Positions 4,996-37,531 of a DNA stretch of 64,000 bases are shown here, in pieces (the stretch's first letter is position 1; the number at the start of each line of letters is the position of its first letter). The translations under genes and the position numbers were made by a program. The DNA comes from Prochlorococcus sp. MIT 0603 (GTDB taxonomy: Bacteria; Cyanobacteriota; Cyanobacteriia; PCC-6307; Cyanobiaceae): positions 714,300-778,299 of the forward strand of contig NZ_JNAW01000002.1 in assembly GCF_000760215.1 (NCBI RefSeq). The letters run 5' to 3'. The notes under the pieces were generated by a model, which was given only the letters and a program-made list of their open reading frames with translations, had not been told where the DNA came from and made no database searches.

Positions 4996-5547
4996 TTAAT
5001 TACCAGGCATTGCAGGTTTATACCCAACACCTCTCTCTGAACATTCAAGACTGTTTCTAGTTTCAACTCCTGTTACGGGGTTAGTACCTTCTGCGATTTC
5101 ACAAAGATTTCTCTGATCATCACTATCAAGTACTGCATAACTAAAGTCAGCTCCTTCTATTAGGGCTCCTGCAAAACTACTTCCAGAAGCAATCATATTT
5201 ACTAAAACAGCATTTCTTAAATCAGTTTTCTGAAAATTCACCCTATCCGATAATGTATCCGTCAAATCAATACCATTAAGATTGGACCCTTTTAAATCAG
5301 CTAGCGTTACGACTGTCCCATGCAAATCAACATTACTAAGGTTTGCATCTCTAGCAGTAGCTCCAGCAATGGAAGACTTGGACAAGTCTTGCCCGTGAAG
5401 ATCAATCCCAGTAATTTGAGAGCGAACATAGTTTGGCACCTCATCCCCTACATTTAAGACTGCATTAACCGACAAACAGGGAAGGAAAGTCAAAAGTAAG
5501 GCTATAGAAACTCCTAAAAGTCTCTTAAAAGGGGAAATTATCGACAT
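4996..5547 (-). CDS. Exported pentapeptide-repeat protein (probably thylakoid lumen)
   Basis: From the Met at 5547 this is 183 aa. A signal peptide (KRLLGVSIALLLTFLPCLSVNA) is followed by pentapeptide repeats of the A(D/N)LxX type (LHGQDLSKSSIAGATARDAN, then ADLKGSNLNGIDLTD), which fold as a right-handed beta helix. Two Cys residues in the C-terminal tail (RNLCEIAEG and SLECSERG) may form a disulfide. The frame continues 22 codons upstream, but that extension would precede the signal peptide with polar sequence, so I place the start here. The role is probably structural or interaction-related. Confidence 0.8.
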   Translation of the reverse strand: MSIISPFKRLLGVSIALLLTFLPCLSVNAVLNVGDEVPNYVRSQITGIDLHGQDLSKSSIAGATARDANLSNVDLHGTVVTLADLKGSNLNGIDLTDTLSDRVNFQKTDLRNAVLVNMIASGSSFAGALIEGADFSYAVLDSDDQRNLCEIAEGTNPVTGVETRNSLECSERGVGYKPAMPGN

Positions 5548-6570: not shown

Positions 6571-7092
6571 TTAAGCTCCAGGCATTTCACTTTTCAACTG
6601 CTCTGCCCATTGAGATATCCTTGTATCTGTCATATCAGATTCACTGTCTTCATCCAATGGGAGGCCGCAAAAAGTTCCTCCTAGTACGCTCTTAGACTCA
6701 TCAAATGTATATTCACTTGTACTTACATAGCCAACCATAGTAGCTCCTGCTTGTTGGAAATATCTATGCAATTCCTCCATTGCATCGCAATAATTTTCTG
6801 TATAGGTCGATGAGTCTCCTAAACCAAAAATAGCGACTTTTTTACCTGATAAATTTAGTTCGCCTATTTCCTCGAGGATTGTGTCCCAAGCTGTTCCTGA
6901 CCTCTCTGAATCTGCTCCTGTGTTCCATGTTGGTATTCCACAAATAATTCCATCATGGCTTGCAAGCTCTGAAAGGTCATCAACATCTGACATGTCTTTG
7001 GGATCTTCTGCCCCATCCAACAATCCATGAATCCTTTCTGCAATGTCCTCTGTTTTTCCAGTAGTTGTTGCGAAATAAATACCTATTGTCAT
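6571..7092 (-). CDS. isiB: Flavodoxin
   Basis: This 173-residue long-chain flavodoxin carries the FMN-phosphate loop in IYFATTTGKTEDIAERI. It also has the isoalloxazine-contacting loops ICGIPTWNTGADSERSGTAWD (about residue 50-70) and FGLGDSSTYTENYCDAM (about residue 90-105). It carries electrons from photosystem I to FNR in place of ferredoxin when iron is short. It lies on the same strand and downstream of the first pcb gene (7961-9046), with two small membrane-protein genes between. This recalls the isiA-isiB arrangement of other cyanobacteria. Confidence 0.95.
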   Translation of the reverse strand: MTIGIYFATTTGKTEDIAERIHGLLDGAEDPKDMSDVDDLSELASHDGIICGIPTWNTGADSERSGTAWDTILEEIGELNLSGKKVAIFGLGDSSTYTENYCDAMEELHRYFQQAGATMVGYVSTSEYTFDESKSVLGGTFCGLPLDEDSESDMTDTRISQWAEQLKSEMPGA

Positions 7093-7205: not shown

Positions 7206-7550
7206 TTATGTGAATTGGGTTAAACCGCTATGCAAGCCATATGAAATCAAAAGAAATGACATTACACCAAGACTTATAAGCATTGATGTATAAAGCCTGT
7301 TAACTCCATAGTCATCTTCAACAGGAGTAAAGTCTGCTATTACAAAAGATTTATTTGAATATTTGGCTCTATCAACAAGACCAGAAGGTTTTAGCTTAAA
7401 TGCCTCATTTTGTATTTTTGTATTCAATGAATACTGATCTTCCTTGAAAAATCTGGGGAACATATAAGTATGCCATAAAGCAATTACTGCAACCCAGAAG
7501 ATTGTGCTTAATCCGGCTATACCAAAGAGAAGATACTTAAATAATTCCAT
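7206..7550 (-). CDS. Hypothetical two-span membrane protein
   Basis: This 114-residue protein has one membrane span at each end (about residues 8-28 and 88-107) and a polar middle (FFKEDQYSLNTKIQNEAFKL). It is unrecognised. It lies between flavodoxin and the pcb island on the same strand, 20 bases downstream of another small membrane-protein gene. The two probably form an operon. Confidence 0.6.
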   Translation of the reverse strand: MELFKYLLFGIAGLSTIFWVAVIALWHTYMFPRFFKEDQYSLNTKIQNEAFKLKPSGLVDRAKYSNKSFVIADFTPVEDDYGVNRLYTSMLISLGVMSFLLISYGLHSGLTQFT

Positions 7551-7569: not shown

Positions 7570-7713
7570 TTATGTCAATGGATTCTTAATTGAATTCCTT
7601 TGTTTTTCTAGTGCTTTGCCTCTGATATACATGAAGATACAAAGTGTTGCTATGACTATAGGAGGATGAGAAGAAAGTAAATTTCCTACAGTTTGAATTT
7701 CCTCTGCTGTCAT
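7570..7713 (-). CDS. Very small single-span membrane protein
   Basis: A short 47-residue frame starting MTAEEIQTVGNLLSSHPP has one membrane span (IVIATLCIFMYI) and a basic tail (RGKALEKQR). It ends 20 bases before the start of the next minus-strand gene, consistent with an operon. No family is recognised. Coding status rests on the well-formed amphipathic N-terminus, span, positive-inside tail and operon spacing. Confidence 0.5.
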   Translation of the reverse strand: MTAEEIQTVGNLLSSHPPIVIATLCIFMYIRGKALEKQRNSIKNPLT

Positions 7714-7960: not shown

Positions 7961-9046
7961 TTAAGAATTTATTCTAAATGTACTCTCCTTCTCATTACCA
8001 ATTGAAGCAGTTACGCTTTTGAAATTAAAGCCTAATGCCCGTAATGCATGCCAGAAATGGCCTTGCAAGAAAAAGAAGCCAAGGTAGTAATGAACATTTG
8101 TTAGAGCAGCTCTAGTTGAATGTCCCCAAAATGCAGTTGCATCAGAAAGATCTCCTGTGTCAACCCAATAGGGAGAGACAGCAAACTTAAGTTGAAGCGT
8201 CTCACCATACCAAGCCTCTGGATAAACAGTTGTATTAGTTGCACACCAGAATGCTGCAACTATTGCCATCCAACCAATACCTGCAAGTGACCAAGAGAGT
8301 ACTGCCTCTGCTGAAAGCAATTCAGAACCCTTGAATTTGCTCCATTCACCAAGTCTTTTATCTTCCCATGGGGTTGATCCTGCAATAACGTGAAAAGCTC
8401 CACCAGTAATTTCAGCGAAACCCAAGAAAGCATGGCCACCCATAACATCCTCAAGGCTGTCAATAGTAATGAAATCAAACTGCCTTTGCCAGATCATAGA
8501 AAGGTCAAGGTTGTAATTAACCTGACGGACTGCTCCAAGAGCAGGATCATAAATTCCATGAATCCTGGCCCATTCAACAAACCAAACACAGGCAACACCC
8601 ATAAAAACTAAATGGTGTCCAAGAATAAATGTCTGGTTGTCAGGGTTATTCCATTCAAGCTTAAATTTCTGAGCTTGCAAAACCTCACTATCTTCTACAT
8701 TTTCATCAAAGAGGACTCCATGAAGAAGGCCTCCTCCTCCATAAACCATAGAGAAAATAAGGTGGAAAATAGCAATAGTTGCAACACCGGCTCCAGTCCA
8801 AACACCAGCTTCATCAAAGCCAATGCCTATAGAAGCAAGGTGTGCCAAGAATAAAGAGCTCTGATGTCCCATGGGTATCTCGGGATTGTACCGAGCAAGC
8901 TCCCAAAGAGTGCTACCACCAGCTGCAAAGCAAATCAGGCCTGTATGTCCTACATGAGAGGCAATGAATCGGCCAGAGCGGTTGGTAACTACAGAATTAC
9001 CAGCCCACCATCCATAGGTAACTTCTGGATTTCCATAGGTCTGCAT
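7961..9046 (-). CDS. pcb: Chlorophyll a/b antenna protein Pcb (copy 1, flavodoxin-linked)
   Basis: This 361-residue, six-span protein is of the Pcb/IsiA/CP43 family, the divinyl-chlorophyll a/b antenna of Prochlorococcus thylakoids. It has the N-terminus MQTYGNPEVTYGWWAGNSVV and the His-containing spans ASHVGHTGLICFA, LGHHLVFMGVACVWFVEWAR and NVHYYLGFFFLQGHFWHALR. Compared with the other two copies it has a longer lumenal segment around residue 225 (GSTPWEDKRLGEWSKFKG) and a different C-terminus. Its linkage to flavodoxin suggests an iron-responsive, PSI-type Pcb such as PcbC, but this is inference. There is no Shine-Dalgarno sequence; the start follows an A/T run. Confidence 0.95.
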   Translation of the reverse strand: MQTYGNPEVTYGWWAGNSVVTNRSGRFIASHVGHTGLICFAAGGSTLWELARYNPEIPMGHQSSLFLAHLASIGIGFDEAGVWTGAGVATIAIFHLIFSMVYGGGGLLHGVLFDENVEDSEVLQAQKFKLEWNNPDNQTFILGHHLVFMGVACVWFVEWARIHGIYDPALGAVRQVNYNLDLSMIWQRQFDFITIDSLEDVMGGHAFLGFAEITGGAFHVIAGSTPWEDKRLGEWSKFKGSELLSAEAVLSWSLAGIGWMAIVAAFWCATNTTVYPEAWYGETLQLKFAVSPYWVDTGDLSDATAFWGHSTRAALTNVHYYLGFFFLQGHFWHALRALGFNFKSVTASIGNEKESTFRINS

Positions 9047-9983: not shown

Positions 9984-11039
9984 TTAACTTGAAAGAGTCC
10001 TTGGTATACCAAAGGGACCAGTTCTGTCTAGCAATCTCTTAAAGTCAAAGCCCATAGCACGCAATGCATGCCATAAATGACCTTGGATAAAGAAGAATCC
10101 TAGATAATAATGAACGTTAACTAAAGCAGCCCTAGAAGTGTGTCCTAAGAAAGCAGTTCCACCAGGAACAGTATCTATCCAATAAGGAGCAACCCCAAAT
10201 TTAAATTGAAGAACTTCTCCATACCAAGACTCAGGATAAACAGTGGTGTTTTGAGCAGCCCAAAAAGCAGCCACACATGCCATCCAGCCTATACCTGCTA
10301 ATGACCAAGAAAGAATTGCTTCAGCTGAGAGCAATCCCTTGCCCTTGAATTTTGTATAAGTGCCAATTTGCTTAGTTGCAATATGAAAAGCACCTCCTCC
10401 AATTTGGAAGAAAGCTAAAAACGCATGGCCCCCTAAGACATCCTCAAGGCTGTCAATAGTTAAAAAGTCAAACTGATGGTTCCAAATTTGAGTGAGGTCA
10501 AGGTTGTAATTAACCTGTCGTATTGCCTCAATAGCAGGATCATAAATTCCATGAATCCTGGCCCATTCAACAAACCATATATTTGCAACACCAAAGAAAA
10601 TTAAATGGTGTCCAAGAATGAAAGTTTGGTTATCAGGGTTGTCCCATTCCAACTTGAACTTTCTGGCTTGTGGAACTTCTGAATCCTGCATATCTCCTGT
10701 GAAATATACGGAGTGCAAAAGTCCTCCTCCTCCATAAACCATAGAGAGGATTAAATGAAGTATTGCGATATTGGCTACACCAACACCAGTCCAAACTCCA
10801 GCTTCATCAAAGCCAATACCGATAGATGCCAAATGAGCAAGAAAAAGAGAACTTTGGTGACCCATAGGCAATGAAGGGTCAAATCCTGCTAGTTCAACAA
10901 GTGTGGCTGCACCACACCCAAAGGCAATTAGTCCTGTATGAGCTGCATGAGCTGCAATGAATTTGCCTGAGCGGTTGGTGACTCCAGAATTACCAGCCCA
11001 CCACCCGTAGGTGACGTTTGGGTTTCCGTAGGTCTGCAT
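9984..11039 (-). CDS. pcb: Chlorophyll a/b antenna protein Pcb (copy 2)
   Basis: This 351-residue six-span antenna protein has the same N-terminus (MQTYGNPNVTYGWWAGNSGV) and His-bearing spans as the other copies (ILGHHLIFFGVANIWFVEWA and NVHYYLGFFFIQGHLWHALR). The length matches the PcbA/PcbB-type proteins of low-light strains. It shares the short lumenal segment FHIATKQIGTYTKFKG with copy 3, unlike copy 1. Which photosystem it serves cannot be decided from sequence alone. Confidence 0.95.
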   Translation of the reverse strand: MQTYGNPNVTYGWWAGNSGVTNRSGKFIAAHAAHTGLIAFGCGAATLVELAGFDPSLPMGHQSSLFLAHLASIGIGFDEAGVWTGVGVANIAILHLILSMVYGGGGLLHSVYFTGDMQDSEVPQARKFKLEWDNPDNQTFILGHHLIFFGVANIWFVEWARIHGIYDPAIEAIRQVNYNLDLTQIWNHQFDFLTIDSLEDVLGGHAFLAFFQIGGGAFHIATKQIGTYTKFKGKGLLSAEAILSWSLAGIGWMACVAAFWAAQNTTVYPESWYGEVLQFKFGVAPYWIDTVPGGTAFLGHTSRAALVNVHYYLGFFFIQGHLWHALRAMGFDFKRLLDRTGPFGIPRTLSS

Positions 11040-35870: not shown

Positions 35871-36018
35871 ATGAAAAGTATCCTTTTAGCTCTTTCAAAG
35901 GGTCAAGCAAAGAAGAGAGAACGGTCAGTCTCAGCAGTTAACAAAAGCAACGATTGCTAGAGAATTAAATATTGATGTTCAGAGCGTTACCTTCCTTGAA
36001 GTTATAGACCCTTTTTGA
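35871..36018 (+). pseudogene. Possible frameshifted small HTH-like gene
   Basis: The frame from ATG 35871 reads MKSILLALSKGQAKKRERSV and stops early. Adding two bases (GA) in the short GAGAGA run near 35917 joins it to another frame. That frame reads RENGQSQQLTKATIAREL and ends TFLEVIDPF at 36018, giving 49 residues. The joined second half (LTKATIARELNIDVQSV) is helix-turn-helix-like. This may be a decayed gene, a sequencing error or a slippery tract. It overlaps the end of the minus-strand frame at 35979. Confidence 0.35.
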
Positions 36019-36191
36019 GATCGAAATACAAACAAGAGGGGAAGGCCTATAACCATTAGGGTCGCAAAAGATAAAATTATATTTATAGTAGAGCTGCTTA
36101 CACCTAAATCTGAAGAAGCTAATCCAAATAAAGTTACAAGCATTTCAAGTAAGGGTATATAAGGCTTCTTTAATATAATCATTAAGAACAC
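35979..36191 (-). CDS. Small single-span membrane protein
   Basis: This is a 70-codon minus-strand frame. Met17 (MLVTLFGLASSDLGVSSSTI) gives a 54-residue form with one span (INIILSFATLMVIGLPLLFV) and a basic end (FRSQKGSITSRK). The size and shape resemble low-mass photosystem subunits but no identity is secure. Confidence 0.45.
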   Translation of the reverse strand: MFLMIILKKPYIPLLEMLVTLFGLASSDLGVSSSTINIILSFATLMVIGLPLLFVFRSQKGSITSRKVTL

Positions 36192-36292
36192 CCTCTATAA
36201 GTTAATAACTAACCAAGCTCAGAAGTTATTGATACATTCGAAAGCATCATTTAATAACAAAAGCAATTTGATATGGCTCTAGTATGTAGTTT

Positions 36293-36298
36293 TAGGAG
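36293..36298 (+). promoter_or_regulatory. Strong ribosome-binding site
   Basis: AGGAGG lies 5 bases before the GTG start of the next gene. Such a full match is uncommon in this window and supports the GTG as the true start. Confidence 0.7.
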
Positions 36299-36303
36299 GC
36301 CAA

Positions 36304-36972
36304 GTGGCAAACACCAAAAAAAATAATTATAACTCTGAAGATAATCTTGAGAAGAGAGATTCTATTGATAAAGATAAGCCACTATCAATAGATAAAACAT
36401 TTACAACAGACTCTATTGGTGAAGAGAAGCGATTATCAGTAGATGCAGCGTTTACAACAGATTCACTAGAGTTAAAAGAATCTCCAACCTTACAAAAAGA
36501 AAAGATCGATGAATCTAATAACGATGAACTTATAAAGCCTGAGCTAATCTACAAATCTAATAAAAGTTCTTTTAAGGTTGGCAAAATCAATACCTTTGAG
36601 GAGATATTTAATGCGATAGAAAATGGGTTTACAAAAAATAAAACTCGTACAGAATATGCTTTCCCTCATCCAAGGTATTGGCTAGGTCCTCGCTTCATGG
36701 CTGTATGGGCACTGCCAATTATTTTAATACAAAAAGCAAGAGCTTTACTATCATCTTCAAACCCAATAAGGCCTTATTCAAAAGCAGATTATTCTGTTCG
36801 CAAGTCAGAAACTATCTACACATCAACAAAAAGAGCTCTTGAAAGCACAGGTGGCATCAGATTCTTTGGAGCTCGGTTTTTAACAATCTGGGTACTACCT
36901 TTAGCCATTACTGGAATATTCATGGAGTTCCTTTTTGTAAGTCCTTTAACTGGCTCTCAACCATTTGGATAA
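36304..36972 (+). CDS. Membrane protein with internal repeats, unknown
   Basis: This 222-residue protein starts at GTG with an AGGAGG site. The N-terminal half is polar with an imperfect tandem repeat (LSIDKTFTTDSIGEEKR and LSVDAAFTTDSLELKES). The C-terminal half has two similar membrane spans preceded by similar motifs (LGPRFMAVWALPIILIQKA and FGARFLTIWVLPLAITGIF), so that half also looks duplicated. I recognise no family. The hydrophilic N-terminus may be intrinsically disordered. Confidence 0.65.
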   Translation: MANTKKNNYNSEDNLEKRDSIDKDKPLSIDKTFTTDSIGEEKRLSVDAAFTTDSLELKESPTLQKEKIDESNNDELIKPELIYKSNKSSFKVGKINTFEEIFNAIENGFTKNKTRTEYAFPHPRYWLGPRFMAVWALPIILIQKARALLSSSNPIRPYSKADYSVRKSETIYTSTKRALESTGGIRFFGARFLTIWVLPLAITGIFMEFLFVSPLTGSQPFG

Positions 36973-37032: not shown

Positions 37033-37179
37033 TCAAGGCTTTGAATTCAACTCATCTTCCATTCCTCTTTTTATCCCTGTGTATAAGGCTGCAAGCAGAA
37101 AAAGACCTAAAACAAAATAAAGCAACCTTTCAAGAAAGAGTGTTATTGGATTACCTATTAGTTCTGAGACTGGTTCCAT
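37033..37179 (-). CDS. Small single-span membrane protein
   Basis: This 48-residue minus-strand frame begins MEPVSELIGNPITLFLERLL and continues with a span (YFVLGLFLLAALYTGIKRGM) and an acidic tail (EDELNSKP). A longer plus-strand frame covers the same bases but is Cys/Leu-rich without a sensible pattern. I therefore favour this strand, because its span is flanked by polar residues as in real membrane peptides. Confidence 0.55.
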   Translation of the reverse strand: MEPVSELIGNPITLFLERLLYFVLGLFLLAALYTGIKRGMEDELNSKP

Positions 37180-37531
37180 TGATATCCTGTGTAATGAGCA
37201 ACTATGTCATCACCATGTCTTGTACATCTAGAATGTAAGCGCTAACAAATCCTTTTACATGCATATTCTTCTATGTAATAACAAAAAGCAATCCAAACAA
37301 GCTACTAGCAACATATGGACGTCCTTCCACCTCACCAAGCATTTTTAAGAACCAGGATAGTCTTTGATGTTTATTGAATAAGCTCATTACAAGAGCAAAC
37401 ATCTTAGAGATAGGTTGCTTGATCAATAATACTAGACTTTATGTTTTTGGACTATATTAACCAAAGCGATAAGAAGGCATACATGTCAACATATAAGAGC
37501 TATCAGCATCTCACCGATTCCTTAGTTAATT
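37180..37531. other. Intergenic region, no gene seen
   Basis: This 350-base gap lies between a minus-strand small gene and a plus-strand gene. It has only short frames and no strong hairpin. Confidence 0.4.

Follow-up and report, generated by a model that had tools for sequence, protein, structure and literature searches.

We describe a two-span membrane protein family that is restricted, as far as searched, to Prochlorococcus. Its representative here is the product of ORF 'A', located at 36304..36972 on the plus strand of the window, the 64,000-nucleotide stretch of DNA that was analysed as a whole, which belongs to a genome of 1.75 Mb. The two spans are homologous, to judge from their sequence profiles, and stem from an old internal duplication. 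In many genomes gene A is linked to genes for the small membrane protein C, the one-span protein PR and the PsbF-like protein D, and A, C and D are mostly retained or lost together in genus g17. We tentatively propose, with somewhat less than even confidence, that A may serve a Prochlorococcus photosystem/Pcb module as an accessory protein in the thylakoid; its location, its physical partnership with these proteins and its role are inferred.

Results

The A protein and its start

ORF A encodes 222 residues and begins with a GTG, a start that fits homology, as relatives open at the same place with M-E-N, M-E-S, M-A-N or similar. The best homologues (G002, G009, G005, G012 and L025, the last a Prochlorococcus contig) share 51-55% with it over at least 183 residues, and homologues align across most of the ORF. 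An AGGAGG ribosome-binding site is found 4 nt before the GTG (36294..36299, plus strand); within 18 nt upstream it is the sole instance among the 65 window ORFs of at least 80 residues, each taken from its first possible start, and the hexamer occurs 36 times in the window, both strands together. The strong ribosome site pointed out by the sequence-only reading is thus present, but it is not common to the family: AGGAGG is absent from the inspected 20-nt upstream stretches of A relatives, so that it appears to be a local feature, real but unconserved.

Two homologous membrane spans

A short helix preceding the first span (36592..36633, plus strand; residues 97-110, ..FEEIFNAIENGF..) is predicted from conservation and a low-confidence model. 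Membrane spans 1 (36688..36756, plus strand; residues about 129-151) and 2 (36853..36936, plus strand; residues about 184-211) both display the core R-F-x3-W-x2-P, the model being again of low confidence; an AlphaFold prediction of A with two sequences reached a pLDDT of 46, too low for a fold search. The A family is defined by two spans each with a W-x2-P core, and the window protein possesses both.

The spans, GPRFMAVWALPI and GARFLTIWVLPL, match each other in an HHpred-type profile-profile comparison at 96% (E 5e-9). In 24 control pairs, A profiles set against PsbE, PsbF and six further families of small membrane proteins never exceeded 0.64%. The best 13-residue pair of the C-terminal region scores 45 vs a maximum of 36 in 300 shuffles, and in four genomes the span-2 profile hit span 1 as well, within one and the same gene (E 4.8e-5 to 7.2e-4). 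Among the 36 of 41 rows used for conservation (at least 130 residues; five shorter ones excluded), W135 is kept in 36, P138 in 35, W196 in 34 and P199 in 35. Span number varies, as the suggested comparison of repeat number between relatives revealed, with one-span forms of 96 and 102 residues in G024 and G054. The one-span form was considered as the ancestral state and set aside: the base of the PolA tree (28 rows from 30 genomes; G031 yielded no match, and the partial G058 was excluded) is unresolved, with two-span G102 joining the outgroup at weak support (83/62).

A recent N-terminal repeat

The N-terminal repeat consists of residues 19-35 (36358..36408, plus strand) and 36-52 (36409..36459, plus strand), the second copy being the one that aligns with the single copy of relatives. 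This best 17-residue pair has a BLOSUM62 score of 51, the highest of 300 shuffles reaching 32. The two 51-bp copies are identical at 40 of 51 bases, distributed as 12, 14 and 14 of 17 over the codon positions, and since the identities span all codon positions the repeat is best read as a tandem duplication of 17 residues (51 bp) at the DNA level. In a 16-member alignment, the 15 relatives are gapped along all or most of copy 1. When 36 full-length A rows were scanned with a simple motif, the element turned up twice in the window protein only, once (near residue 23-31) in eight other rows, with a ninth (L081) recognised by eye, and not in the remaining rows. All relatives with the element belong to genera g1 and g39, and many members, e.g. 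those of g17, have no such N-terminal tail.

Both the N-terminal repeat and the span pair thus beat shuffled sequences, and the duplicated architecture that had been seen in the sequence stands; what does not is the idea of one regular design. A holds two unrelated duplications, the span pair being old and conserved and the N-terminal repeat separate and recent. Conservation of the repeat pattern accordingly divides in two: the W-x2-P spans are kept among relatives, but the doubling of the N-terminal element is found in the window protein only.

Distribution of the family and database searches

Relatives, whose lack would have spoken against the sequence-only reading, are numerous: among 400 genomes from its bacterial family, a span-2 profile detects A in 110, six of these being fragments by our reading. 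All A-bearing genomes are about 2 Mb or smaller, the largest being 2.03 and 2.05 Mb (G102, G217). When 145 genomes of the class were scanned with a two-span profile, A was found in seven, each of them from the same family. A separate search that covered 38 genomes belonging to other families of the class found none.

The protein had been described as a membrane protein of unrecognised family, and so it remains. Even with E allowed up to 1, the window protein drew no match from Pfam or NCBIfam models; the A family has no match among PDB sequences, and no Pfam, NCBIfam or PHROG family matches A at a curated cut-off or over a real length. PF09804 matched one A member (E 0.00019). PHROG 18174 was rejected as the family of A, its match being probably due to chance: 15 of 16 members give weak matches, at best E 0.00042, and in the window protein the match covers 13 residues; on its own genome A (E 0.54) scores worse than another place (E 0.25), with 3 of 14 control genomes also matching. 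A phage origin was likewise set aside, with no match in phage records and no confirmed relative in viral contigs; two records of one Stenotrophomonas phage matched the A search at E 6, which is chance level. For D, phage records gave no match at E 0.01.

Among the papers listed by literature searches, none has a title or abstract opening that describes the A/C/D/PR set. The excerpted text of one study of signature proteins gives 37 that are shared by every sequenced Prochlorococcus other than MIT9303 and MIT9313 (PMC2823733). In excerpts of a proteome study (PMC5451487) psbF is named and the A gene is not, and in those of a diel transcriptome study (PMC2663038) psbF and isiB are named and the A gene is not.

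Protein D

Two members of D hit the NCBIfam 'cytochrome b559 subunit beta, long form' at E 1e-63 and 2e-53 (NF002717, NF002720), and D also matches Pfam PF00283 and solved PsbF chains (best E 1e-10). The histidine of PsbF is a heme ligand; in D its place is taken by an asparagine in all 19 distinct rows of at least 85 residues. The genome carrying the window contains ordinary PsbE and PsbF as well, and its D gene (G000:C2:13013-13309; L162 about 5008-5316) lies beside two ORFs of the same strand, one weakly PsbN-like (25 bits, cut-off 70) and the other short and rubredoxin-like (63 bits, cut-off 90).

Long-form D without A or C was found in eight listed genomes, seven of them larger genomes that belong to genus g34. 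In g17, a second, shorter D-like ORF comprising the N-terminal span only stands just after D (L158 10337-10570, L064, L066). G308, a g34 genome, has no A; two of its ORFs, one D-like and the other C-like and divergent (L161 1581-1970 and 5300-5623), lie 3.3 kb apart, and the C-like ORF is matched by the C profile at E 5e-6. The pairing of C with D may therefore predate A.

Gene neighbourhood

In the window, A adjoins a glutathione peroxidase gene and ORFs without family match. Among its neighbours are two small one-span ORFs on the minus strand, both delimited as stop-to-stop frames: 'G' (35979..36194), the divergent neighbour of A, which is also found beside A in g1, g16 and g39 loci, and 'L' (37033..37206), downstream of A and kept at this site in the genus. 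The genes for C (7206..7550), which is linked to A in other genera, and PR (7570..7713, HPPIVIATLCIFMYIRGK) sit apart from A on the minus strand, between those for a flavodoxin (6571..7092, PF00258) and a Pcb-type antenna protein (7961..9046, PF00421), with a second Pcb-type gene (9984..11039, PF00421) on the same strand. In this genome C is 29 kb and D about 737 kb from A on the same contig, which counts against a photosystem-module reading. The order flavodoxin-C-PR-Pcb is shared by the window, G002, G004, G005 and G009.

Profiles of A, C, D and PR, together with flavodoxin and Pcb queries, were run against forty hand-selected A loci from 38 genomes and 17 genera, mostly of about 9 kb. At least one of C, D and PR is near A in 26 of the 40 loci and 11 of the 17 genera: C in ten genera, D in six and PR in seven. 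Flavodoxin and Pcb are each near A in two genera, a second point against a photosystem module. In g1, the genus of the window, 3 of 11 A loci are linked and 8 have no partner near, which also weighs against such a module, and in g83, g88, g85, g46, g19 and g21 no member of the set was found near A in the sampled stretches, some of which stop at a contig end. The order and orientation of partners around A vary between genera: flavodoxin-C-D-A-PR is found in g86 and g4, PR-C-D-A in g17, A-D-PR-C-Pcb in G007, A-Pcb-C-PR in G102, A-D in g39, G002 and G004, and C-A in G024 and G054.

G004 carries an A remnant by the peroxidase gene and a separate D-linked A, while in G007 one A is linked to D and another, truncated, sits by the peroxidase. 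Because these two genomes have a copy or remnant at each place, both the peroxidase site and the D-linked site have held A in the genus of the window; the A-protein tree displays no clean split between peroxidase-site and D-adjacent copies. Small repeat-rich proteins (IAPLGFISIGIVPMGIV...) are encoded near A in some genomes (L058, L064, L069, L072, L074).

Retention and loss of the set

Among 68 listed g17 genomes, 43 contain A, C and D, 18 contain none, and seven are partial or hold remnants (A remnant only in three, A only in two, A and C in one, C remnant only in one). PR was found in 39 of 81 g17 genomes; in the 16 scored for both, it accompanies A-C-D in 10 of 11 cases and is present in none of four genomes without the set nor in the one with A alone. 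As A, C and D are adjacent in g17, their joint loss, which one deletion could explain, is not counted as independent evidence, and Fisher p-values for A/C/D co-occurrence ignore descent. One or more of A, C and D is present in 121 genomes; 13 of these have an intact A and lack an intact C, lack D or lack both, and eight have D alone, both of which count against the photosystem module. In G143, a decayed A remnant (L160 about 9990-10115) is located away from the site of the set in relatives.

Discussion

Pcb antennae replaced phycobilisomes in Prochlorococcus, and to our knowledge little is known of small proteins serving them. A consists of a charged, probably disordered tail, followed by the short conserved helix and two spans derived from one ancestral span; in the reading that we prefer, it would sit in the thylakoid. 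There it would act with C, PR and the PsbF-like D, which would have lost its heme ligand, on a photosystem with its Pcb antenna, in an accessory role such as assembly, docking or stabilisation. A bolder version, which we regard as unlikely, would make A, C, PR and heme-less D a dedicated module that docks or assembles Pcb on a photosystem, in which D takes the place of PsbF, either in a variant PSII or in an intermediate of its assembly, and A was invented within the Prochlorococcus line by span doubling.

Known systems offer partial likenesses. The cytochrome b559 beta long form (NF002717, NF002720) is itself a small membrane protein, encoded beside A in six genera and in overlapping taxa; however, it has no detectable homology to A and also occurs without it. 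Proteins of the PsbY, PsbZ and PsbN kind are short like A, with one or two spans, and are encoded near photosystem genes, but none of them gives a profile match with window A. CURT1/CAAD-type thylakoid proteins carry two spans after a soluble N-terminal tail, the same layout as A, which differs in being without any Pfam match at the threshold given above.

A could instead be a generic small membrane protein involved in membrane shaping, stress or the envelope, its photosynthesis neighbourhood being due to common descent. The lack of a recognised domain, the 14 of 40 loci and 6 of 17 genera without a nearby partner, and the peroxidase and unmatched ORFs that surround A in the window are all in line with this; yet A remains beside D or C despite changes of order and strand between genera, and D and Pcb are photosystem-type proteins, so we hold this explanation to be somewhat unlikely. 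An accessory of iron limitation, belonging to an isiB/Pcb regulon and acting on PSI-Pcb rings and not on PSII, would agree with the position of C and PR between flavodoxin and Pcb genes in five g1 genomes, and with flavodoxin beside C-D-A in g4 and g86. A Pcb encoded next to flavodoxin is induced by iron shortage and forms rings around PSI. However, D is similar to a subunit of PSII, and no flavodoxin was found near A in the g39 and g17 stretches, which makes this role improbable in our judgement.

It is very improbable that A is a hidden, heme-less PsbE-like partner of D in a shadow cytochrome b559. A is beside D in loci of six genera, and the motifs R-(F/Y)-x3-(W/H) and LFVS recur in PsbE by eye; against this, with PsbE and PsbF profiles of five and three distinct rows, span 2 reached 0.54% with PsbE and 0.27% with PsbF, no better than with other small membrane families, while PsbE vs PsbF gave 48.6% in the same test. 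Homology of A to PsbE/PsbF is thus not supported, 0.54% being the maximum over six comparisons and PF00283 giving no match, although a distant kinship could have escaped profiles of so few rows. Neither span of window A contains a histidine that could be a heme ligand, and of the 36 rows all keep the central tryptophan of span 1 and 34 that of span 2.

Returning to the accessory reading, lineage-restricted small membrane proteins encoded near Pcb and flavodoxin genes, including a D without heme ligand, would be concrete candidates for antenna functions. The module question is testable, since one genus holds genomes with and without the set. In G412 (L064, L065), the A-C-D-PR set occurs twice, about 360 kb apart.
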